Of a stretch of DNA of 43,122 nt, positions 7,189 to 40,661 are shown in pieces (position 1 is the stretch's first letter; the number at the start of each line of letters is the position of its first letter). The notes beneath the pieces were generated by a model. The model worked only from the letters and a program-made list of their open reading frames with translations, ran no database searches and was not told where the DNA came from. Source of the DNA: Candidatus Zhuqueibacterota bacterium (GTDB lineage Bacteria; Zhuqueibacterota; Zhuqueibacteria; Residuimicrobiales; Krinioviventaceae); contig JAFGSB010000100.1 in assembly GCA_016934825.1 (NCBI GenBank), positions 1 to 43,122 on the forward strand. The letters run 5' to 3'. The translations under genes and the position numbers were made by a program.

Positions 7189-8046
7189 TTACTTTTTGTT
7201 TAAATCTAATTGTTTAAAAGCGTGGACATAACACAAAGACTGGTCTTTTATACCCGCAAGACAATAAAGTTCACGGTACATGTCCACGGAACCATTATCT
7301 TTAACAAAAACATCCACGAGGGCCCCGTGTGGACAATGAAGACAGTTTTCGCTCTGAAAGTTAAAATGAGTCGCTGTCTGACGGGCAACCAGAGTTTTGC
7401 TATTGTTCCAGGTTTCATTGCCGGACCTGTGTTCAAAATCAATATGCCACAATTTGGGCGTCAGGAGCCGGCCATGATTCATTTTAAGCCTGCCTTTTGC
7501 TTCGAACCTGTCACCGGGCGCCAAACGGAGACGGTCCTGCTGATTTGCGGAAATATAAGCATAGAAATAATCTTCAAACGGTGTTTGATCAATATAACCG
7601 TTTTTGAATATCAATATATAACCTTCAAGACGTATCTGCCCCTTTTTACCTTGAATATATTTTTTAAATCTCGGTTTTATTGAATCTATTTCAGCCCATA
7701 TTAAAACATCACTGTTTTGAACCTGTGCAAACCAATCTTCAAAATCATCCAGTTCGGCTTTAAAATTCTCAAATTCCGCGGCCGAAACATTTATCCGGGG
7801 TTGATAATGAATCTTTTCATCGGTATAATGGGTGCACCCATCACATAACCTGCCGATATAATTATACCCCCTGATACATGCTTTCCCTTTATCCTTTAAT
7901 CCGCAGGACCATTTAAACATGATACAACCCTGAGGATAACATTTTTTATGATACATTACATGGTAGGTTGAAACCTGGTATTCAAATTTTGAGTGATCCT
8001 GGTAATTACAACTAAATATATCAGTTCTTTTATAGGGATTTTTCAT
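7189..8046 (-). CDS. Cys-rich protein with a central OB-like region, function unknown
   Basis: The 285-residue protein has eleven cysteines clustered at both ends. The N-terminal third holds C13, C36, C41, C48, C57, C68 and C71 (ending RLCDGCTHY), and the C-terminus holds C235, C238, C262 and C272 (NCLHCPHG, YCLAGI, SLCYVH). This spacing suggests metal binding, either zinc or an iron-sulfur cluster. Residues 110-205 alternate short strands and glycines (QIRLEGYILIF, LRLAPGDRFEAKGRLKM) in a pattern compatible with an OB fold. I see no catalytic motif and do not recognise the family. It has a good AAGGA ribosome-binding site and lies between the PTS genes and proS on the same strand. Confidence 0.7.
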   Translation of the reverse strand: MKNPYKRTDIFSCNYQDHSKFEYQVSTYHVMYHKKCYPQGCIMFKWSCGLKDKGKACIRGYNYIGRLCDGCTHYTDEKIHYQPRINVSAAEFENFKAELDDFEDWFAQVQNSDVLIWAEIDSIKPRFKKYIQGKKGQIRLEGYILIFKNGYIDQTPFEDYFYAYISANQQDRLRLAPGDRFEAKGRLKMNHGRLLTPKLWHIDFEHRSGNETWNNSKTLVARQTATHFNFQSENCLHCPHGALVDVFVKDNGSVDMYRELYCLAGIKDQSLCYVHAFKQLDLNKK

Positions 8047-10842: not shown

Positions 10843-11766
10843 TTAATCCTTGTCTGCTCTTGGATGAGCTCTTTTATAAATACGTTTCAAGTGTTCGGCG
10901 GAAACATGTGTATAAATCTGGGTTGTGCTGAGATTGGAATGACCTAATAATTCTTTCACCGACATCAAATCCGCCCCTTCGTCAAGTAAATGCGTTGCAA
11001 AGGTATGACGTAAGGCATGGGGATGAGCCTTTTCAACATCTGCTATCTTTTTAATATACTTATTCACGATCTGCGCTACTTGTTGTCTGGTGAACGGCTC
11101 TTTATAATTTTTAACAAAAAAATAGTCGTTATATTCCGGCTCAATATGATCATGTACCGCCCGTTCTTTTAAATAATTTTGCAGATCTTTAAAAAGTGAA
11201 TCTCCGGTCGGTATTATACGCCTTTTATTTCTTTTTCCCAGTATACTCAGTGTTCCTGTATGAATATTAAAATCCTTGATACGTAAATTGACCAGTTCGG
11301 TAACACGAATCCCGGTGGAATAGAATAATTCAATGATAATATAATCACGCAATCCTTCGAACGTATTCACCTGGGGTAATTCCAATAGTGCTTTGATCTC
11401 CGATTTTGTAACAAATTGCGGCAGTTTTTTATCCAGTTTTGGCGAGGCAATATTCAAGGTCGGATTGACCCGCAAAAATCCTTCCCGAACCAGGTAACGT
11501 GAAAACGCCCGCAATGTGGCCAGTTTTCTGCCGGTACTGCGGGGTGTATATTGTTCTTCAACCAAATAGGATAAAAAGCCCCTGATCGTGAACCGCGTAA
11601 ACAAATCCAGACCCGGATTGTCGTTTTGATATCTTGTTTTTACATAGTCCAAAAACTGATCAAGATCTTTTTCATAGGCATTCCGTGTATGTACGGAACT
11701 GCGTTTTTCTACTTCAAGATATTTTACAAAACGGGGAATCCAGTATTCAATATTATAATTGGTCAT
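10843..11766 (-). CDS. xerC: Tyrosine recombinase XerC/XerD
   Basis: The 307-residue enzyme resolves chromosome dimers at dif with a partner. The N-terminal SAM-like DNA-binding domain (residues 1-90) is followed by the catalytic domain. All the catalytic residues are visible: R154 (TGIRVTEL), K178 (LGKRNKRR), H250 and R253 (HALRHTFATHL), H276 (LLGHSNLSTT) and the nucleophile Y285 (TQIYTHVS). It starts 7 bp after the topA-like stop and has only a weak ribosome-binding site, so translational coupling is likely. XerC versus XerD cannot be decided from sequence alone; the smg-topA-xerC context favours XerC. Confidence 0.94.
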   Translation of the reverse strand: MTNYNIEYWIPRFVKYLEVEKRSSVHTRNAYEKDLDQFLDYVKTRYQNDNPGLDLFTRFTIRGFLSYLVEEQYTPRSTGRKLATLRAFSRYLVREGFLRVNPTLNIASPKLDKKLPQFVTKSEIKALLELPQVNTFEGLRDYIIIELFYSTGIRVTELVNLRIKDFNIHTGTLSILGKRNKRRIIPTGDSLFKDLQNYLKERAVHDHIEPEYNDYFFVKNYKEPFTRQQVAQIVNKYIKKIADVEKAHPHALRHTFATHLLDEGADLMSVKELLGHSNLSTTQIYTHVSAEHLKRIYKRAHPRADKD

Positions 11767-11773
11767 AAATGAT

Positions 11774-14014
11774 CTAATTCTTATTGTTTATATTGTTATC
11801 AACCGGAACGACATTCATGTCATATTTTTTATGACATTTGGGACACTGGTAATATTTTTCAAATCCATTCGTCTTAATCACCATGTACATATTCCCGCAA
11901 TGTTCGCAGAGGATATTTTCCGGCTTATGCCAGGATGCAAATTTACATTTTGGATAACGGTTACAGCCGTAAAAAATTTTACCGTTCCGGGTACTTTTTT
12001 CTACGATTTCTCCGCTGCACCCTTCCTGCGGACACTTGACGCCAATCGGATAGGCTTTAGTATAGTTACATTTCGGATATTTCGAACAGGCCAGGAACCT
12101 GCCGAATCGTCCTTCGCGGACGACCATGAGAGAACCGCAATTCGGACATTTTTCTTTAAGAGATGTGTTGTTTTTTGAGGATGACACCGGTTCGGCATAA
12201 TAGCACTCTGCTGGAAATTTCTCACAAACCAAAAACCGGTCGTTTTGTTCTTTTGTAAGATATAACAGACTGTTACAAACCGGACATCTGTCTGCAGACG
12301 TACTGTTTTTTTCCTGTATTGCCGAATTGGTTTCTGATGGTTTATTCAATACAAAATGCTGGTTTAATTTTTTAAAATTTTCTAATACGGTACTGTATTT
12401 TTTACTTCCGCTTTCAATACATTTCAATTCTTTTGAAATTTTTGTCAAAAATCCGGGATTGTAAATATTGGGCAAATACTTGAATACAAAATGGCATATT
12501 TGATAACCTGCAGGTGTCGGGAGAATATGTTCTTTATGATATTTTATTAATTTGTTTGCAAAAAGTGTGCCTGTAGTTTGTAACAGGTCGGGAAAATAAT
12601 CCCTGCCCGCTGATACAAGCTCCTGGAGCACGCCCGTTTCCGTATACCGCTTTACGGGTACGGAAACATGTCCATCCACCCGCACATCATTATATTGCAA
12701 TATCTGGTTTTTCCTTAATTCATTCGAAATTGTATTCAATTTGGTATTATTGTATTGATTTGAATCATCATCTAATAATTTATACCCGCGAAACAGAACT
12801 TTTGTTTCCAAACTTTTTAATTCATACCGATTTTCCGTATCGGAAACAATATCAACTGTTGTCTGTTCTTCTATTGATCCGCTCATTTGTGACGCGACAA
12901 ACCGGTTCCAGATTAATGAATATATATTAAACTGTTCATCGGTCAAAAATTTACGGACTTTATTGGGGAAAAGTTTAACATCGACGGGCCTTATGGCCCC
13001 CATAGACGGATCATTTTTACCATACTGATACGGCTTTGGCGGCAAATATTCCGCGCCGTAATCCGTATAGATCAATTCACGGGCTTTTAATACGGCCTCA
13101 GGGGGAGTGTAATTCGATTCGGTGTGATAAAATGTTATTAATCCTTTTAAACCGGCTCTGCCCAGATCAATGCCCTCGTACAGCTCTTTTGCATTATTTA
13201 ATGTTTTCGATAGAGAATACATATACTTTTTATAAGCTTCATGAAGTAATGTTATGGTTGTAAAGGGGGCCGGAGGATTAATTTTTTTCTGCTGCCGGAT
13301 AATTTTTTTCACCTTGAATAATTGTTTTTTCAAGTCTTTGATGACCGCTTTCGCGTGATATAAATCCGGAATGACCGGCGTACTGCCGGATATCCCCACG
13401 AGCGGACAAAATATAGCCTGGCTATCGTTGACTTTAAGTACCACATTCATTGCATATGACTTTTCGACCTTGAATATTTCTATTTGATCTTCACATTCAC
13501 AAATCAATCCCAGGGCCATAATATATTCGAAACGCAGGTCATTGACTGAAAATTTTTGTAATATATTACTGTTATGAATGATTAAACGGTTAATTGCCAG
13601 CCGGGTATAATATGAATTTAAAAGTAAATTATTGACGGGAACCGGTTTTACAAAAGCCTGTTTAATACCGAGACGGGTAAACTCGTAAATCTTGACCCTC
13701 CTGACACAATCTTTTTTTTCGATAAAGATATGCTCAAAACATTTAACTTTGAGTTCCCCAGATAAACTCGGGTCAGCCGCAATAATTATATTTTGAAACA
13801 GTTCGGAAATTTTTTTTAGCTCTACAATATACTCTTTATGCCTGGGTTGGAATAGAAAGTGAGGTTTTAAATCATCATTTTTGAAAATAAAATTTGTTCC
13901 GGCAAGATCTTTAATGATATCGATCCCGGGATAAATAAAATAACTATCCCCCAAAAATTTTTGTAAAATATTATACTTTGATATGGAATCAACAATAACC
14001 AAAGATTGTGACAT
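11774..14014 (-). CDS. TopA-like protein with a degenerate active site
   Basis: The 746-residue protein is a bacterial topoisomerase I homologue by architecture: a Toprim-like N-terminus (SLVIVDSISKYNILQKFLGD), the GLIT block, IRP block, HILPTPAGYQI block and four C-terminal zinc ribbons (residues 577-733, CPVC...CPNC...CPQEGC...CEHC). The catalytic residues are largely lost. The E. coli Glu9 position is Asp9. The Toprim ATDxDxE segment reads AADPSLSGE, so D81 stays but S83 and S85 replace Asp and Glu. The nucleophile segment GLITYMRTDS reads GLITFYHTES, so F295 replaces the Tyr and H297 the Arg. AHEAIRP reads SMGAIRP, so M338 replaces the His. The SAGRVQS block is also gone. It sits in the standard smg-topA-xerC slot. 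Likely a non-catalytic DNA-binding paralogue; a functional topA should exist elsewhere. Confidence 0.85.
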   Translation of the reverse strand: MSQSLVIVDSISKYNILQKFLGDSYFIYPGIDIIKDLAGTNFIFKNDDLKPHFLFQPRHKEYIVELKKISELFQNIIIAADPSLSGELKVKCFEHIFIEKKDCVRRVKIYEFTRLGIKQAFVKPVPVNNLLLNSYYTRLAINRLIIHNSNILQKFSVNDLRFEYIMALGLICECEDQIEIFKVEKSYAMNVVLKVNDSQAIFCPLVGISGSTPVIPDLYHAKAVIKDLKKQLFKVKKIIRQQKKINPPAPFTTITLLHEAYKKYMYSLSKTLNNAKELYEGIDLGRAGLKGLITFYHTESNYTPPEAVLKARELIYTDYGAEYLPPKPYQYGKNDPSMGAIRPVDVKLFPNKVRKFLTDEQFNIYSLIWNRFVASQMSGSIEEQTTVDIVSDTENRYELKSLETKVLFRGYKLLDDDSNQYNNTKLNTISNELRKNQILQYNDVRVDGHVSVPVKRYTETGVLQELVSAGRDYFPDLLQTTGTLFANKLIKYHKEHILPTPAGYQICHFVFKYLPNIYNPGFLTKISKELKCIESGSKKYSTVLENFKKLNQHFVLNKPSETNSAIQEKNSTSADRCPVCNSLLYLTKEQNDRFLVCEKFPAECYYAEPVSSSKNNTSLKEKCPNCGSLMVVREGRFGRFLACSKYPKCNYTKAYPIGVKCPQEGCSGEIVEKSTRNGKIFYGCNRYPKCKFASWHKPENILCEHCGNMYMVIKTNGFEKYYQCPKCHKKYDMNVVPVDNNINNKN

Positions 14015-14052
14015 AATTTACCTTCATACTGCACGCTTGAAATATGTATGAT

Positions 14053-14523
14053 CTAATGCGGCAATAAAGTAGAATTGAACTGAAAAAAACCTTCGGATGC
14101 GCTATTCTCAAAGTCCAGAACCACTGCGGCGATCAGGTCCTGCATTTCTTTTACATCAAGTCGCGGCATTTGAAGATTTACGGCGCGTTCGATAATTCTT
14201 TCCATTTCATCATCGCTTAACAGTTCCAGTTCACGAAGGTGAAACAAATAACTATACGCTTCCGGGGATATTATTTCTTTCTCTGCAGGAGTTAATAAAC
14301 GCCAGACAGGTTTGGGTACATCCGAGGGATGTCCTTTGATGACCCTGTCAATGCTTTCACCATGACTCATTAACCAGTTCATTGCGGATGATATTTCATC
14401 ATCGGTAAACCCCTGATCTGATAATATGTCCATTATTAATTGTAAATCAATATCGCCAAAAAAGCTTTCACGTATCTCTTTCATTACAATACTTAATATA
14501 TCAAGAACCCGTTTGTTCATCAA
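14053..14523 (-). CDS. smg: Smg family protein (DUF494)
   Basis: The 156-residue protein matches the DUF494/Smg family, a conserved protein encoded next to dprA/topA in many bacteria and of unknown biochemical role. It is all-helical, with the family's start (VLDILSIVMKEI), the middle GFTDDEISSAMNWL and the later LTPAEKEIISPEAYSYL, LELLSDDEMERIIERAV and MPRLDVKEMQDLIAAVVLD. A GGAG lies ahead of a double ATG. It precedes the topA-like gene by 38 bp, keeping the classical order. dprA, often found here, is missing. Confidence 0.88.
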   Translation of the reverse strand: MMNKRVLDILSIVMKEIRESFFGDIDLQLIMDILSDQGFTDDEISSAMNWLMSHGESIDRVIKGHPSDVPKPVWRLLTPAEKEIISPEAYSYLFHLRELELLSDDEMERIIERAVNLQMPRLDVKEMQDLIAAVVLDFENSASEGFFQFNSTLLPH

Positions 14524-14716: not shown

Positions 14717-17700
14717 TTATAAATTTTTTCCACAGCAGTTTTTATACTTTTTCCCGCTGCCGCAGGGGCAGGGATCATTCCGGCCGACTTTAACGGTTTT
14801 CACAACCGGTTTTTTTGCTCCGCCGCCAACCGCTCCGGGAATCTGGGCGGGTTTTTGCTGACTTTTGGTCATAACCTGTTTGAACAACTCGACCTGTGAA
14901 TGGGAAGTGGACAATTGCTGCGGTTCGGCGCGGCGCATTTCCCGCTCCTCAAACTCTCCGCCGACATCAAACACGCGGAACAGGGTGCTGACCACGTCAC
15001 GGTTAATGCTGTCAACCGTTTTTACGAACATTTTGTATGCCTCGGATTTATATTCAAGCAGCGGGTCTTTTTGTCCGTAACCACGAAGTCCGATTCCCTC
15101 ACGGAGATCATCCACACCGCTCAAGTGCTGACGCCAGTTCTCATCGATTTTTTCTAAAATATAGTATCGTTCGTAGCGGGCGACTACATTTTTCCCGATC
15201 TCGTTTACTCTTTTCTTATAGATACCCTGCGACCACATACTGAGTTTTTCCATCACGTCGTTCGGGTCCATGACTTCATCGCTTTCATCCCGCAGTCGCG
15301 GAGATTGCCTGAATATCAGCCGGCAATCACTTTCCAAACGCCGGATTTGCGTTGCGTCAAGCGAGTCTTCTTTTCCCAGTATATTGCCGATCATCGCGTA
15401 AATCGTATCATCGATCATCATAAGCACGCTGTCAAAAACGATCTCGCTGCTCAGCCTTTCCTGATGATATCGTTCCACACGGTCGGAATATGTTTTATAA
15501 AATGCCAAGCCCCAGGAAATCAGTTCTTCCTTGTACAATGACATTGTATTGGCTTCCCGGGTTTCCGGCAGTGCCTTGTCCGGTTTACTTAAAAACATGT
15601 TTTCCAGGTTACGGGATAACAGCTTTTGGGCGCTTACCGGATCCAGATTCATCTTTGTTATGTTATTAAATAATGCCAGTATCGACGCTTCGATAAGTTC
15701 CTCGATCGACGTACTGGCCAGCATTAACTCATTGTATGTGGTAATGTTGTTATGTAATTCCGTAAAATATAACTGACGGGCATGGCCGATGGTCTGATTG
15801 ATTAGTCCGTTCCAGTCTATCACCCCGCCGTCAAAATCAAACTTGTCGTCAAATACTTTTTCCAGGAAAGCCTGCTGTTTTTGAGTGAACTCCGGCTTAT
15901 CACGGTCAAAAGTATCGACAGCTTTTATAAAAACATACTCAATTATCGCGCTGATAAATTGAGTGGAGGAGAAATACCCAAAGATCCGGTTGCGATAAAG
16001 CAGGTCGTCCCCGGAGTTTATGGACAATTCATTTAACCAGTGCTGAATTTTTTCCGCGATTTTTTCCCGCCGAATTGTCCGCATTTCATTTTCACCGATG
16101 GGCGGGCGGTCCATAAAAATTTTCTCCAGTTCATTTAAAAATGCTTCCGTATTCCAGGCGCCGGAGGGCGTATCAACGGACAGATGCCTGTTCATCAGGC
16201 CATTGACATATATCTCCAGGAATTCCTGTAAACTGATACCCGAAAAAATAATTTTATCAAATATTTTTTGATATTTTTGCACTTTACTGTTATAAATTTC
16301 CAGCGCCCATTTGACAATCCGCTGTTCCACCTGAGCCGCATTCGTTAACTCCTGTTTGTTGTCCAGCCATTCCGGGCTGGTCCCCAATATCCTCTCCAGT
16401 TCAAAACTGATACCCTCCATATTCCAGCGGGATACGTCGGTTGTACCGGCGTTATGTAACCGGATTTTTAACAGCACCAGTTCAGCCAGAACATCCTGTA
16501 TTTGACAATAACCTAAAATACGATGTCTTTCCTGCATCTGGTAAAGATGCCGCTGTTCCTTCAAGCGTTCGTCGACCCATTCCAGAATAACGTTTCGGAT
16601 ATTATCGGGTTTTTGTCGTTCAAGGTCCTCGGCTGTAAAATCGGGCTCGGTGCCGAAAAATTCTTTTAAATTATCCAGCAGTTCGGGCAGTTTCCAGGTG
16701 GATCTGTCATCCAGTTCACCTAAAAACCGCTTGACCTTGGATTCCACAAAATCTTCCGGTTGTGCAAAGCCGAGTAAATTCTGCCGGCGTTTATAAATTA
16801 TTTTGCGCTGGTCATTCAAAACATCATCATATTCCAGCAGGTTTTTCCGGATTTCAAAGTTCCGTTCTTCAACTTTTTTCTGTGCCCGTTCGATGGACCG
16901 GGTAATGAGCGGGTGTTCAATTTTTTCATTGTCTTCCATCGAACCCAGCCTGCTCATAACGGATGTGATCCTGTCCGAACCAAACAGTCGCATCAAATCA
17001 TCTTCCAATGACAGGTAGAATCGTGAGGAACCCGGATCGCCCTGGCGGCCGGAACGGCCGCGCAGCTGCCGGTCAATCCGCCGCGCCTCATGTTTTTCGG
17101 AACCGATAATATGCAGTCCGCCCTGTTCAATAACCGCCTTTGTCAGTTTAATATCGGTACCGCGGCCGGCCATATTCGTAGCGATGGTGATCGCTCCGGG
17201 CAAACCTGCTTTGGCCACGATCTCCGCTTCCATTTTATGGTATTTCGCGTTCAATACCGTATGAAACCGTCCGGACTCGAGTTCCTTTGTCACATCGCCC
17301 TTTTTCAGCCAGTTGGCAACCGGTATGCCCTGCATTGTAAATAACTGACTCAGATGCTGGGACACATCTACCGATACGGTACCGATCAAAACAGGGCGGC
17401 CCTGTTCGTGTTTACTAATGGTTTCATCAATTATGGCCTGGTATTTTTCCTTCTTGGTCCGAAAGATCACATCATTCATATCATCACGTATCACCGGTTT
17501 ATTGGTGGGTATGACAATGACATCAATTTTATAGGTACTGAAAAACTCCTGAGCCTCAGTTTCGGCCGTACCCGTCATTCCGGCCAGTTTATTATATAAC
17601 CTGAAAAAATTCTGCAGAGTAATTGTCGCCAGGGTCTGGCTCTCGGCCTGTACTTCCACTCCTTCTTTTGCTTCCAGGGCCTCATGCAGTCCCTCGCTGA

Positions 17701-20700
17701 AACGACGCCCCGGCATCAATCGGCCGGTAAACTGGTCGACAATCATAACGGCTTTACGTCCAGCCTGCGCCCCGGATCGCCTGGTTTCTCCTTCCTCTAT
17801 CGCTTTGACGACATAATCCACGTCTTTCTGGTATAACGTATAAGCCCGTAATAACTGCGAAATATTCTGCACCCGTTCTTCAACACGATTATAGTCCTGC
17901 CAGAACTTGTCTCTTTTTTGTTCAAGGATAGCCCTGGGTTTCCGGTCAAAATGCAGACGGAACCAGTGTTCAATCTCTTCGTTGCTCATGACGAAATGCG
18001 GCAAATGCGCGTTGGATAACAGTTCGGTCATTTCCCGGTCGTCAAGCATAATATTCTTCATTCGCAAATGGGCTTTTTCCTTGGGAAGCAGACCTTCAAA
18101 CTCCGATTTGGAATTGACTTTTTTGGTGCTGAACTGAATGATCTCATCACGGAAATTTTGAAATTCATCGCTAAAACTAAAAAAAGGTAATCCGTCAAGC
18201 AGTAACGAACGGGCGGTTTTTTCCAAAGCCGCAGGATACCCTTTTTTATTCATAACAAATACAGCGTCCACGTCTATATCCTGGTCTGCCACGATTTCCA
18301 GTAATTTATTCGCGACCGTTTCACGTTCTTTTGCTATTCCAAGTAAATTGTTCATACCGGTTTCGGACAAACCTTTAATGACAATATTTTTGGTAAATTC
18401 GGTTTCCGGCAAGATTTCGCCCTCCAGTCGGAAATATCTTCTTGCCCAACGCTGTTTTTCACTAAACGACAGCTCCCTGTCCGATAACTTGTCGAATACC
18501 CTTTTTATATTTGTTGATATTCGTTTGACATCTTCGAAACGACGGGATATACTGCCGATTTCAGACTGTCCGCTTTTATCCACTTTCGATTCGAGATATT
18601 TATCCAGTTCCAGTCTCAACTCTACGTTGTTTTTCCCGGACAAATTTTGAGAAGATTTTTGCCAGTTACCGATTTCCTGCTCTGTGTTTTGATAGGACGA
18701 TCCCTGTAACCGGTCAAGCTCTTTATCAGCGAGTCCTGAAATTTCGCCGTTTGGGGCGATTTTAAATATCTGCTGTTTATCATTGCTGTATTTGGCAAGG
18801 TCCGAGTCCAGATCCAACACCAGCGACCGGCTTTGTTCGGCAAAATTGGACAAATAATCAAAACCGGTTTTCGTTATTTTTATCTGGGTCGGGGAATCGC
18901 CCGTTTCATAAAAAGTTTTGATGACATTATCAATATCACTCTCCTGTGTTGAAGAGATATATTCATCTATTGAGGATAGCTCCTTTTCCGTCTGTTCCAC
19001 GGCGATAATCCGTGCCGTATAATCAAATGAGGCCTGGTTTAAGGTGTCATCCAGCAATTTCTGCAATTGCTGATCCCGCTCTTCCACCAAACTACGGTCG
19101 GGCAAAACATATAAATCAGGATTCCCGCCCAGCAATGCTATTCGTCCCTTTTCAGTAATATGGTTGAGTACGGCCCCGTTATCCCTGAATTCAAAATATT
19201 CCTGGTTTGAGTCCCCAACCTGTCCCGCACCGATCTCACCGTCGCCGCCCTTTAACAAATGATCCAGTTTAAAGATAACCGGGATCAGCAGGGGATCGCC
19301 GTCGTTAAGTATACAGAGCAGGGCGATTTTACCTTCCTCATGAATACCCAACGGGATTCCGAACTGCTTGTCCGTTTCGAAATAAGTATTTAGCAGATCC
19401 CGCCTTCTGTCCATCAGTTGACGGCTTAATGTAATATCGTTATCCACATCCGCCTGGTCGTTTATCTTACCAAGCAACGTTATATAAGCATCGACCTCTT
19501 TTTCACCATATTTGCCCTGGCTGTTTGCGGACAGGTACTTTTTCCCCTCTTCGGTTAAATTATTAACCGTTTTGTCCATTTTTTTCGCCATGGAATAAAA
19601 ATTTCTCCAGACGGATGCCTTGTCGCCTTTTTTGTTTTGCACCCTGTTATTCACTTCTTCCGACATTTTCAAAAGTTGTCCGGATAATGTGTCAATCGCC
19701 TGCAATTGTTCCGGGCTTATCTGGTTTTTAATCTTTGCCAGGACGGTTTTTCCTTCGAGCGTCAAACCGTTACAATAACCGGTGATCGGATCATGTTCAA
19801 AAAAAACGGAGCGGTTTTTCTGACCGCTTACCTTGGACAGCACTTCATCCAGCGCATCCAGTTTTTGAATCTTGTCAACAATATCCTGATCGCGTCCCCC
19901 GGACAGGAATATACGCCCTTTTTCCGTGATATCAATGACGTGACTTTTTTCATCTATCGTATAGTAAAGCTCGGCATCAATTTCACTCATATTCTTGTTG
20001 ACTTCATATTGACCCTGGATACGTTCAATCAATTTTTTAACCCAGAACTCGGAAGTTAACAATTCCAGCAGCGCCGGATTCTTGGGATCGCCTCTATGCG
20101 CTCTTAATATTTTAATCCCGCCCAGTTCTTCATCCTTTTCCAATAATTCTTTTCCTTCGCGGATGAGCTGCTGAACGAGTTCCTTTTGTCGTCTATATAA
20201 ATTTTCAACGGTCGGCTTTAATTCTTTATAAATATTTTTGGGTGCGCCGACGGCGCCGGAAATAATTAAAGGTGTGCGCGCTTCGTCAATCAACACGCTG
20301 TCTACCTCATCCACAATCGCGTAATGCAGCGGACGCTGAACCACCGACCATACATCCGACGACATATTGTCCCGAAGATAGTCAAAACCGAATTCATTAT
20401 TGGTGCCATAGCTGATATCAGCCTGGTAAGCCAGTCTTCTTTCTTCGGGCGATTGATCGCCAAAAATCGGGGCTACCGTAAGACCGAGAAATTTATAAAT
20501 TTCACCCATCCATTCACAGTCACGCTGGGCCAGGTAATCGTTTACCGTGATCAAATGCGCGCCTTTTCCCTCAAGGGCATTCAGGTACAAAGGCATGGTT
20601 GCGACAAGCGTTTTCCCTTCGCCGGTTGCCATTTCGGCAATTTTCCCTTCATGTAGTACGATACCACCGACGATCTGTACATCATAAGGGACCATATCCC

Positions 20701-20986
20701 ATTCTATTTCCTGACTGCGAACATTCCATTTTTCCCCTAATAATCGGCGACACGTATCCTTAACTACGGCATAAGCTTCCGGAAGAATATCATCAAGTGT
20801 CTCACCCATACGTAAACGATATTTAAATTCGTTGGTTTTGGATTTCAATTCTTCATCAGTTAATTTTTTATAATCATCGGCAATCTCATTGATCTTTTCT
20901 ACCATCGGCCAGATACGTTTAAGTTCCCGGTCCGTACTGGTGCCGCCCATAACTTTTGAAAGAAACTTTTCTACATTTTTTAACAT
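14717..20986 (-). CDS. secA: Giant preprotein translocase ATPase SecA (2089 aa)
   Basis: SecA drives secretory proteins through SecYEG with ATP. Motor parts are intact: Walker A ATGEGKT (120-126), DEVDS (226-230), VDQFTGR (1083-1089), GMTGTAETE (1136-1144), GRGTDI (1274-1279), [12 protein letters not shown] (1306-1317), [12 protein letters not shown] (1383-1394), IDENWRQHL (1947-1955), and the C-terminal SecB/lipid-binding zinc motif [13 protein letters not shown] (2073-2085). Family length is about 850-1100. Here roughly 700 residues are added between DEVDS and VDQFTGR (preprotein-crosslinking domain) and about 400 in the helical wing/scaffold. Both additions contain degenerate internal repeats (see the two repeat entries). 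The reading frame is open throughout and codon use looks like its neighbours. Start ATG has AAAGGT. It lies 267 bp after nusB. Confidence 0.97.
15356..16690 (-). repeat. About five degenerate 90-residue repeats in the SecA helical wing region
   Basis: Residues 1433-1877 of SecA can be cut into about five units of 70-95 residues. Each resembles the native segment that follows (about 1885-1958). The pattern is a helix with LE..F/ILxxxP, a polar linker, then a helix with W....Y...V, and another helix ending near a His-Leu or similar. The clearest anchors are LERILGTSP with [11 protein letters not shown] (unit 2), LENMF..KP with [14 protein letters not shown] (unit 5) and the native CRLIFRQSP with [11 protein letters not shown]. 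Units 1, 3 and 4 are weaker. The match is by eye. Confidence 0.55.
17987..19894 (-). repeat. Repeat-bearing insertion in the SecA preprotein-crosslinking domain
   Basis: SecA residues 365-1000 form an extra block. A motif of the type strand + (I/L)TxxGxxxL recurs: [12 protein letters not shown] (353-364, native-like), LTLEGKTVL (408-416), LTEEGKKYL (477-485), [10 protein letters not shown] (548-557), [12 protein letters not shown] (610-621, with the native-like LYVLPD after it), ITKTGFDYL (704-712) and [10 protein letters not shown] (873-882). Coiled-coil-like charged segments separate them. The copies at 353 and 610 are near-identical, which suggests duplication of one native element with later divergence. 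Confidence 0.6.
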
Positions 20987-24573: not shown

Positions 24574-24933
24574 ATCCAAAGCAGGTCGATAAGCCGAATT
24601 CTGTTGTACGGTATTCCGAACCGATGATCATTTATCTGGGATGCCGATTGCCCGGCACCTCATGCGACCTACCCAAGGGTTTAACGAGACGGGCCGCCTC
24701 TTCCCTCCTATTTGGTCTTGCTCCGGATGGGGTTTACCATGCACCTGATGTCGCCAGCAGGCCGGTGAGCTCTTACCTCACCTTTTCACCTTATCCTCGT
24801 TATGAGGTTGTTTGTTTTCTGTGGCACTTTCCCCGCCTCACAGCGGGTCCGCGTTACGGACCATCCTGCCCTCTGGAGTTCGGACTTTCCTCATCCCGCT
24901 TTGCGAGACGCGATCATCTGACCTACTTTGGAT
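24574..24933 (-). ncRNA. rnpB: RNase P RNA, bacterial class A
   Basis: On the minus strand the sequence has the landmarks of RNase P RNA: GAGGAAAGTCCGAACTCC near the 5' end, an AGAGGGCAGGATGG segment, GGGAAAGTGCCACAGAAAAC, the GGTAAACCCC-type region with AAGACCAAATAGGAGGG, the AGGTCGCATGAGG turn and the 3' end ACAGAATTCGGCTTATCGAC. The ends pair to make P1: AUCCAAAGUAGGUC (24933-24920) with GACCUGCUUUGGAU (24587-24574), 14 bp with one G-U. This fixes the transcript at about 360 nt. It is the catalytic RNA that matures tRNA 5' ends. The gene is between the zinc-ribbon gene and recJ, same strand. No T-rich terminator follows, so its 3' end may be processed from a longer transcript. Confidence 0.96.
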
Positions 24934-37396: not shown

Positions 37397-38796
37397 CTTT
37401 AAATCCTCCTGGATTAAAAAGCGACTCTAACAATAATTTTATACTTTATGAATATTCAAATTGTAATCTTGATATTTATATATCTGACTTTTAATATTTA
37501 CTCTGATGAAAAGCACTAATGATATTTATAAAAAAATTTTACCCCATTTAATCACTTTTAATATTCCGATACCCGCGTCAGGTCAAAGCCGGACACGAGT
37601 TACGTTATAAATGAACTACTAATGGAATTTTCATATTCCATCACCGCCGTATTGAACAATAAATTAATAATCAGCAAAGTTTATATTACCTCCTGATTAA
37701 ACGGACTTTTGAAAAAATGATGTTATTTGTATGATATATATTAGGAATGACAGTGGCAAAACCGGAAATTTCAAAAATCTGCCGGGATTGGATTGAAATA
37801 AATTTGCAGTAAAACGGATATGTGTGGAAATTATATTCATCATCCTGAATAAAATATTTAAAATTCTTAAAAATGCATCATAGAAAATTGGTATTAAAAA
37901 TATTTACACCGACTTGATCTCGCGTATATCTTGTCTTTTGTATATTTTTAACTTTCAAAACTCGTATGATTTTATTTCCAGCCTGGAAATATGGAAATCA
38001 ATCCCATATACATTTTCACTTTTTTCAGGAAAGACCGCTCTTCGCTTAATGAATGATAAACAATTTCCTCGTTAAGAATGTTATTTCTTTTTCATTGATA
38101 TAGAAAAAATAACTTGCGAAAATAAATCTGTCACCTTTATAACGACAACTTTCCCCTCACTTGTTTATTTTCAACAAGTTATCGTCTTTTTGCGTTAACG
38201 CACACGCTAATTGAAAAAAATAAACTTCTAACTCTTTCAATTAGAAGCACTATTTTATTACTATTTTTATATAAATAAAGTAGATAAGTATAAAGAAAAT
38301 GTCAAGCAAAAAATGTAAAATAATGTAAATCGGGCTGTCAATTATTAATCATCAGGTTTTTCCCGGTTCAATGCGGACACATATTCCCCAGTTCCCTATA
38401 AAATTCAGTTATTGAGTGATTATCTACAGGTTCAAGTGTTACAAGTGCGGTTTTTCACAATGAAATTAACTAATTGTATTATATCTGCAATCCGGGTCAG
38501 CAGGAATGCGGTCAAAAGGATAAATATGACCCCCCGGTTGGAAAATGCAAGATTTAGGTTGTCTGTCTAATTGATGTCAATGATAATTTAAAAAAATAAA
38601 CAAATTTTTCCCGATGATTAAACAGCCATTACAACTCAACAAATAACGGACGGCCATGTGAACGATTACCAAAATCCGCCCGGAGGCGAAAAACTACCGG
38701 TAATGATTTTCCTTGATTTTAATGTACATCATGATTATAATTACCTGTGTTAAAATATGGTTCTTTTATAAAACAATGTCAGGAATACGATATTAA
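37397..38796. other. 1.4-kb intergenic gap, no gene supported
   Basis: This separates the divergent TonB receptor and YgjP-like genes. I see no supportable gene. The gap holds small palindromes: ATTTCCA-GCC-TGGAAAT near 37975-37990, TGCGTTAACGCA near 38190-38201 and a CTTCTAA/TTAGAAG hairpin near 38226-38250. A 30-odd codon frame (38657 on, GTG) with no clear ribosome-binding site was considered and rejected. Confidence 0.6.
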
Positions 38797-39360
38797 ATGA
38801 ACTCTACCATTGTCAATATCAGGGAAATCGGTCCGGTATTATTTGAAAGAAGCAGAAGGGCAAAGCATGTTAATATTTCGATCAAAGCGAATACGGGCAT
38901 CAGGGTCGCTGTCCCGAGTGGTATTTCATTTCAAAAGGCGGAAAAACTCATTCAGTCCAAAATCAGTTGGATCAAAAAACACCAGCTAAAATTCAAAAAA
39001 GCTGAAAAAGCTCATAAAGTTTTTTTCAATGATGAAAACATTGATATCAGGGCGGCAAAATTATTATTAACAAACAAATTAACCCGTCTTGCCGGGCAAT
39101 ATGGATTTTCAATTAACAAGATAACCATCCGTAATCAGAAAACAAGATGGGGTAGTTGTTCATCATTAAACAATATTAACCTTAATATTAAACTGGCGAA
39201 ATTACCGGAAGAATTAGTCGATTATGTTTTATTCCACGAGCTTGTTCATACAAAAATTAAAAATCACGGTCAGGCGTTTTGGGCGGAATTGGACTATTAT
39301 GTCGGAGACGCAAAAAAGCTGGATAAAAAACTGAAGAAAATAAAGCTCGGTTTTTTATAA
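38797..39360 (+). CDS. YgjP/WLM-type metal-dependent hydrolase (DUF45)
   Basis: The 187-residue protein has the zinc motif HELVHTKIKNHGQAFW (H147, E148, H151 and H157), preceded by RWGSCSSLNNINLN; both are family hallmarks of the YgjP-like metallopeptidase fold. It matches the length and layout of the YgjP/DUF45 family. A proteolytic or UTP pyrophosphatase role has been proposed for YgjP. The N-terminus has the ERSRRAKHVNISIK block. AGGA precedes the ATG. It is 44 bp upstream of the RelA/SpoT-TPR gene, same strand. Confidence 0.88.
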   Translation: MNSTIVNIREIGPVLFERSRRAKHVNISIKANTGIRVAVPSGISFQKAEKLIQSKISWIKKHQLKFKKAEKAHKVFFNDENIDIRAAKLLLTNKLTRLAGQYGFSINKITIRNQKTRWGSCSSLNNINLNIKLAKLPEELVDYVLFHELVHTKIKNHGQAFWAELDYYVGDAKKLDKKLKKIKLGFL

Positions 39361-39404
39361 AGACCGGGTAATATGGAATTTATATTATAGAAAGGAATTT
39401 AAAT

Positions 39405-40661
39405 TTGAGTACCGTTAATAAAAAACGGTTAATAACAATTCCTAATCGAAAAAAATTACAACACGCTTACGAAGATAATTATGCCATATATGACCTTGAA
39501 TTAAGAAGGCTGAATAAACGTCTTAAAAAATTATTGACCGAAAATCAGATTAACGCGACCATAAAATCCCGAATTAAATCTTTTGATAGTTATTTTGACA
39601 AATTATTAAAACTATATAATGATAATGACACCGAAACCGATAAAGTCATTCTTACTGATTTTATCGGCATTCGAATCATTTGTCCTTTTCTGGTTGACCG
39701 GGATAATGTAGTTAAAATATTAACGCGTGAATTTAATGTGACTGAAATCGAAACCAAAGGTTCCAACCATTCATTTAACGAATTTGGTTATGATTCCACA
39801 CATCTTTTGGTGGATTTGCCGCAGGGTTCACCGGCTGTAGAAATGCCGTATACGACAAATGTTTTCGAATTACAACTGAGAACGATTCTGCAGGAGGCGT
39901 GGGCCGAAGTCGAACATGAATTGATTTATAAGGCGAACTACTCCCTGTTGAATACACCGATCCGCAGAAAACTGGCGTCTCTTAATGCAAGCCTGGCTTT
40001 GTCGGACATCATTTTTCAGGAAATCCGCGATTATCAAAAAGAAATCCAGCAGTTGGGAGATAAACGCCGCAAAATTCTGCAGGAAAAAGTGAAAGAACTT
40101 GATCATCTGTCTATTCTGAACAAAATTACACCCAAACAAAAATATGAAAATGAAATACAGCAAATGCTTCCGCCAATAAAACCCCAGAAACATTTGGATA
40201 AACTCATATTTGATGCGTTAGACGCCCACAGCAATCAGCAGTATGACAAAGCGATAGATATATATACCCAAATCCTGGATTTGGAACTGGATAATACGGT
40301 CCGTTCAATAATTTTCAATCACAGAGGGATGGCTTATTTTATTCTGTCAGAGTATCAAAAATCAATTGATGATTTTAGCAAATCAATTGAAAACAACCCG
40401 GAAAGTTTCAGAGCATATAATAATCGTGGACTGGTTTATAAAACACAACAACAGTACGATAAAGCTTTAATGGATTTTGAAAAATCCCTTGAAATCAATC
40501 AGATGCAGGTTGATGGAAACTATAGCTGCGCTTTGCTTTATTATGATTTGCAAAATTATACCTCAGCTCTTGTTTTTTGCGATAAAACTCTCAACATTAA
40601 GCCGGATTTTGAACCTGCAATCAAATTCAAGTCAATGATTCGCACAAAACTTTTTGGATAA
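39405..40661 (+). CDS. RelA/SpoT-domain nucleotide pyrophosphokinase fused to TPRs
   Basis: The protein has 418 residues from a TTG start at 39405 (AAGGA 8 nt upstream; no ATG nearby). Residues 35-180 are a RelA/SpoT (GTP pyrophosphokinase) domain: R56-x-K58 with S59 (ATP contacts), D85xxGxR90 (ILTDFIGIR), GYDSTH (128-133) and E155LQLRT with WAEVEHE (166-172), all key residues. No HD hydrolase, TGS or ACT domain is present. Residues 265-402 are four tetratricopeptide repeats (for example YDKAIDIYTQILDLE, YQKSIDDFSKSIENNP, YDKALMDFEKSLEIN, YTSALVFCDKTLNIKP). The TPRs probably recruit a partner or self-associate. The GYDSTH has Asp where Arg/Gln is typical. It could be a small alarmone synthetase or a toxin-type RSH; a cognate antitoxin is not seen next to it. 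Confidence 0.88.
   Translation: MSTVNKKRLITIPNRKKLQHAYEDNYAIYDLELRRLNKRLKKLLTENQINATIKSRIKSFDSYFDKLLKLYNDNDTETDKVILTDFIGIRIICPFLVDRDNVVKILTREFNVTEIETKGSNHSFNEFGYDSTHLLVDLPQGSPAVEMPYTTNVFELQLRTILQEAWAEVEHELIYKANYSLLNTPIRRKLASLNASLALSDIIFQEIRDYQKEIQQLGDKRRKILQEKVKELDHLSILNKITPKQKYENEIQQMLPPIKPQKHLDKLIFDALDAHSNQQYDKAIDIYTQILDLELDNTVRSIIFNHRGMAYFILSEYQKSIDDFSKSIENNPESFRAYNNRGLVYKTQQQYDKALMDFEKSLEINQMQVDGNYSCALLYYDLQNYTSALVFCDKTLNIKPDFEPAIKFKSMIRTKLFG

Follow-up and report, generated by a model that had tools for sequence, protein, structure and literature searches.

The window, meaning the whole stretch of DNA that was analysed (43,122 nucleotides of contig JAFGSB010000100.1 from a Candidatus Zhuqueibacterota bacterium), carries the gene order secA-smg-[TopA]-xerC-hpf-hprK-EIIA-EIIB. 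The reading frame in the TopA position (11774..14014, minus strand) starts with ATG and runs open for 746 amino acids, with no internal stop and no N, and a ribosome-binding-site-like GAAGG lies six bases 5' of its start codon (14021..14025, minus strand). It is flanked on the same strand by smg (DUF494; 14053..14523), the neighbour that defines the slot, and by xerC (10843..11766), which begins seven bases past the TopA stop. The smg-topA-xerC-hpf order recorded in the initial annotation is thus seen in the window, and the smg-xerC slot is common to the copies of this gene across the bacterium's order and to the intact native TopAs of its class.

The protein is homologous over its full length to bacterial TopA, as represented by E. 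coli b1274, TIGR01051 and the combination of PF01131 with PF01396. PF01131 (Topoisom_bac) matched at 166.8 bits against a cut-off of 35.1, and the PF01396 zinc ribbons were also matched, whereas the Toprim family PF01751 went unreported in the Pfam search even at E<=1. The NCBIfam equivalog TIGR01051 was missed, at 298.7 bits against a cut-off of 456.4; for comparison, the native TopA of a class relative scored 789 bits, and a second enzyme in the same genome, TopA2, scored 808 bits. Judged by this homology, and by a slot held in common with intact natives, the window protein is a member of the PF01131 superfamily by descent.

All of its domains can be placed on the minus strand. A Toprim remnant (aa 1-118; 13661..14014) is followed by the first part of gate domain IV (aa 119-180; 13475..13660), arch domains II/III (aa 181-455; 12650..13474) and the second part of the gate (aa 456-556; 12347..12649). 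The C-terminus comprises ribbon 1 (aa 573-608, with C577, C580, C597 and C604; 12191..12298), which is missing from several relatives, ribbon 2 (aa 620-655, PF01396; 12050..12157), ribbon 3 (aa 656-695; 11930..12049) and ribbon 4 (aa 696-735; 11810..11929). The TopA outline with four zinc ribbons that had been proposed from the sequence was therefore borne out, as the 16 cysteines form four C4 ribbons, in a YrdD-like row that includes the aromatic residues F640, F681 and Y682. The check by structure prediction agreed: an AlphaFold2 model (pLDDT 84.5) retained the type IA fold, including a predicted intact Toprim fold, and matched E. coli and streptococcal TopA structures with Z scores of 37-40 over 520-545 residues. 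Against E. coli TopA the Z scores were 37-39, and against 1cy6 the match was Z 39.4, with 542 residues aligned at an rmsd of 3.5.

The active site is nevertheless largely absent. The window protein was aligned with E. coli K-12 TopA, TopA2, 25 TopAs native to the class and the order's remaining copies, and each substitution previously read by eye was identical in this formal alignment: E. coli E9, D113, E115, Y319, R321 and H365 correspond to D9, S83, S85, F295, H297 and M338. Further changes affect H33 (I33), D172 (N142), R195 (Y164), D323 (E299) and T496 (D476), while K13, D111 (D81), R168 (R138), E313, T318 and T322 are retained (E. coli numbers). Hence the DxDxE motif keeps only D81, the Toprim Glu is D9, and a Phe codon (13130..13132) stands in place of the catalytic Tyr, which is present in TopA2 and in 25/25 class natives. 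The other compared sites are likewise conserved in 25/25 natives, except T318 (22/25), and the changes in the window protein are therefore not a matter of chance. The alignment with E. coli TopA, TopA2 and the 25 natives shows that these losses are not an artefact of misalignment. In the intact enzyme, Arg321 functions in transition-state stabilisation, and a proton relay involves both His365 and the Toprim Glu (PMC7587558). The window protein would accordingly be expected to lack catalysis, and the earlier description of a TopA homologue without its catalytic residues is upheld by the alignment.

With Phe in place of Tyr, the phosphotyrosine cannot form. DNA might still be cut through another nucleophile, or by the window protein acting as a partner of TopA2, as the protein keeps its fold and some metal-site residues (D81, K13), and a tyrosine, Y296, adjoins F295. 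However, Y296, which the initial annotation had singled out as a tyrosine that might prove to be conserved in the pocket, aligns with E. coli M320 rather than with the nucleophile, and is replaced by other residues in most relatives. Furthermore, several copies in the order have no Toprim domain, most Toprim acids are gone, Arg321 is absent from every copy, and only the copy of genome G004, itself without the Tyr and Arg, still has His at position 365. Continued cutting can therefore be given almost no credence.

That the real TopA should lie elsewhere, as had been predicted, was also found. The genome contains exactly one other PF01131 gene, TopA2 (876 aa, 424 bits; contig C165, about 38003-40633, or L049:8004-10634), the only other type IA topoisomerase, in which every tested active-site motif is intact. 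The two proteins have homologous type IA cores, but TopA2 differs in its genomic location, its active site and its E. coli-type tail (PF21372 and PF08272). Its closest named relatives are gammaproteobacterial TopAs, at 63% identity, and the order's TopA2s form one clade within the gammaproteobacterial-type group, with support of 99 in the first tree and 77 in the second; given the latter value, the donor is placed no closer than the gammaproteobacterial TopA group as a whole. Because the clade lies inside this group, and both the nearest relatives and the tail are of that type, TopA2 is, on its phylogenetic placement, a horizontally acquired xenolog, and not the paralog of the native gene that had been suggested. 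Contamination is ruled out as the source, as TopA2 or a piece of it occurs in 19/22 genomes of the order, as one clade that shares approximately 60% identity with the closest sequences beyond it. The three genomes without it are incomplete or fragmented (G005, 73% complete; G009, 78%; G018, 94%). A search of plasmids returned only ordinary TopAs, at <60% identity. The nearest non-gammaproteobacterial relatives of TopA2, in Planctomycetota assemblies (L075, L082), represent a different case, in that the second TopA is intact there. In G006, TopA2 (L148) is spread over three reading frames of a 5-contig assembly, likely through sequencing errors.

The displaced native gene is found at several stages of loss across the order. 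A full-length dead copy occupies the slot in eight genomes (G000, G001, G002, G004, G006, G008, G012 and G019), and the copy is truncated by a contig end in three (G003, G005 and G007). Shortened copies without the Toprim core occur in G013 (572 aa), G016, G020 (477 aa) and G021 (459 aa); that of G020 was modelled at pLDDT 81.9 and matches the E. coli TopoI arch fragment 1cy9 (Z 18.2, 231 residues). The slot is empty, with smg adjoining xerC, in G010, G011, G014, G015 and G018, and it was not found in G009 or G017. The full-length copies have no frame breaks apart from an assembly N-run in G004 (L036:3538-3547); the sequence preceding this run is a degenerate Toprim (VIVDS...), by which the G004 copy is classed as full length and dead. 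Hence, wherever the slot was found, the native gene appears always to be catalytically dead, Toprim-less or deleted. Outside the order, a single PF01131 gene scoring >=404 bits is present in 36/37 near-complete genomes of the phylum, and two are present in G025; the slot was directly checked in several of these genomes. Tyr319 itself persists in G008 and G012 (ITYPITDS and VITYPLTDS), in contrast to Arg321, gone from every copy, and His365, gone from all but that of G004. The simplest reading, by parsimony rather than proof, is that the order's ancestor ceased to be able to use its native TopA for catalysis once TopA2 had arrived, with the Tyr drifting later. TopA is near-universal in bacteria. 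G018 has no PF01131 match at all, neither native TopA nor TopA2, probably owing to an assembly gap.

These losses were repeated. On a tree of seven neighbouring genes, and with G004 left out of the Toprim-less set, Toprim was lost in at least two events (G013; the lineage of G016, G020 and G021), and the whole gene was deleted in at least three (G011; G015; the group of G010, G014 and G018). The independent deletions show that any role of the dead protein is dispensable and non-essential. They would also be consistent with a slowly decaying relic that has no selected function, or that is kept only because its operon position couples the translation of smg and xerC, the TopA-xerC junction being short or overlapping in most genomes. 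The rate of evolution points the same way: the window copy is only 39% identical to a copy from the same genus, compared with 72-83% for xerC and smg.

Selection was assessed in two close pairs of relatives, neither of which includes the window's own copy. The dN/dS of the native-slot copy was 0.21 (95% interval 0.12-0.35; 380 codons) between G002 and G007, and 0.24 (0.18-0.33; 477 codons) between G016 and G020, departing from equal rates with Fisher p values of 2e-9 and 2e-21 respectively. The corresponding value for the window copy against G001, 0.32, is unreliable, as synonymous sites are saturated (dS 1.8). In the same two pairs the neighbouring genes had values of 0.05-0.19, apart from hpf, with 0 amino-acid changes, and TopA2 had values of 0.04-0.10. 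Therefore the constraint on the dead TopA is weaker than that on its neighbours or on TopA2. Nevertheless, the combination of an open frame and these ratios indicates that, where it is kept, the dead TopA is not a pseudogene.

This constraint is unevenly distributed. Among residues invariant in native TopAs, the fraction retained by the dead copies is 41% for Toprim, 25% and 26% for the first and second gate segments, 45% for the arch and 42% for ribbon 1, compared with 74%, 92% and 76% for ribbons 2, 3 and 4 (figures that take in only the C-terminal part of G004). The cysteines of ribbons 2, 3 and 4 are all kept in the 12/12, 12/12 and 11/11 copies that reach them. F640 of ribbon 2 and F681 of ribbon 3, which were equated by motif with the aromatics that stack on single-stranded DNA in E. 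coli TopoI (by comparison with PMC4678816), are present in 12/12 copies, and Y682 in 11/12, with Phe in the other. Selection therefore acts mainly on the C-terminal ribbons, while the gate and Toprim domains decay. The initial proposal of retention for a non-catalytic role is thus supported by the low dN/dS of the close pairs and by the ribbons, with the amendment that the constraint is concentrated in the latter. A relic is correspondingly unlikely: ratios of 0.21-0.24 are far below 1, the full-length frames are unbroken outside one assembly's N-run, the cysteines of ribbons 2-4 survive in every copy reaching them, and polarity within the operon leaves the 92% conservation of ribbon 3 unexplained.

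Instead, the window protein is probably a non-catalytic protein that binds single-stranded DNA, RNA polymerase or both through the TopA tail, having been displaced as an enzyme by TopA2. This reading is drawn because the parts that cut and gate DNA decay, the ribbons are held, and the equivalent parts of the E. coli enzyme have such activities: its ribbons bind single-stranded DNA through stacking aromatics (PMC4678816), and its C-terminal part binds RNA polymerase, with uncoupling of the two leading to R-loops, and a structural clamping of DNA behind the polymerase having been proposed (PMC9352719). The ancestor of the order would have acquired a gammaproteobacterial-type topA, which assumed the relaxation of negative supercoils, leaving the native gene in its operon to lose catalysis early. 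The native copy would then have been kept for its capacity to bind nucleic acid, with the arch domains serving as a scaffold, and the three C-terminal ribbons binding single-stranded DNA through stacking aromatics, docking onto RNA polymerase, or both, as in the E. coli tail. Its likely use would be in transcription, where it could retain or shield the strand left unwound in the wake of the polymerase, a function that would not have come with TopA2, a foreign enzyme with a different tail. A more specific version, in which the displaced protein became a dedicated adaptor for polymerase or single-stranded DNA, supplying the tail function in trans to a foreign enzyme that provides catalysis, is possible, and is put forward tentatively. 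If true, it would mean that the two halves of TopA's work are now divided between proteins of separate origin.

Retaining such a protein may have a cost. Excess inactive TopA is toxic in E. coli (PMC9352719), and the dead copy could therefore be a burden. In the same species, active TopoI is driven off the polymerase when Y319F or the isolated tail is overexpressed, with hypernegative supercoiling and R-loops (PMC9352719). Hence the dead protein might act as a natural dominant negative, filling the polymerase or single-stranded DNA sites of TopA2 and damping its activity. However, as the TopA2 tail is of the different, E. coli-like type, competition for the same sites is not a given, and this function is decidedly improbable.

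The non-catalytic binding protein favoured here has only partial parallels among known systems. The enterobacterial single-stranded DNA-binding protein YrdD likewise has TopA-type C4 ribbons arranged in a row and lacks topoisomerase chemistry, the product of the same evolutionary direction (PMC4678816), although it comprises the ribbons only, whereas the window protein retains a decayed catalytic core in the native topA slot. The E. coli TopoI Y319F mutant and the 14-kDa TopoI tail similarly present a TopA tail without catalysis, and bind RNA polymerase (PMC9352719); yet these are laboratory constructs, toxic in excess, whereas the dead TopA is natural, and occurs through much of an order alongside a foreign TopA. 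No precedent for a catalytically dead natural TopA was found in the open-access literature, which is a weak negative. Evolution would have separated two functions here, leaving catalysis to one protein while selection maintains the old tail in the other. The order documents the fate of an essential gene after its displacement by a foreign one, and its intermediates (full length and dead, without Toprim, or gone altogether) provide ready test cases for a non-catalytic role of the TopA tail.

A second, independent displacement is possible in another family of the same class, where G025 and G038 carry an intact TopA of 769 aa located away from the slot (L047, L048, L050). The native slot copy in G025 (636 aa) is fast-evolving, but its loss is opposite to that of the window protein, as the catalytic residues are kept and the sequence ends before ribbons 2-4; in G038, the native copy was not found.

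Other features of the window include a SecA of 2089 aa (14717-20986, minus strand), about twice the usual length, in which the Pfam domains leave two large insertions, at about aa 330-1030 and 1420-1845, and the C-terminal half of which aligns well among other members of the order. A 285-aa reading frame without a Pfam match (7189-8046, minus strand) is conserved next to EIIB in several of the order's genomes, and a bacterial class A RNase P RNA lies at 24574-24929 (minus strand).
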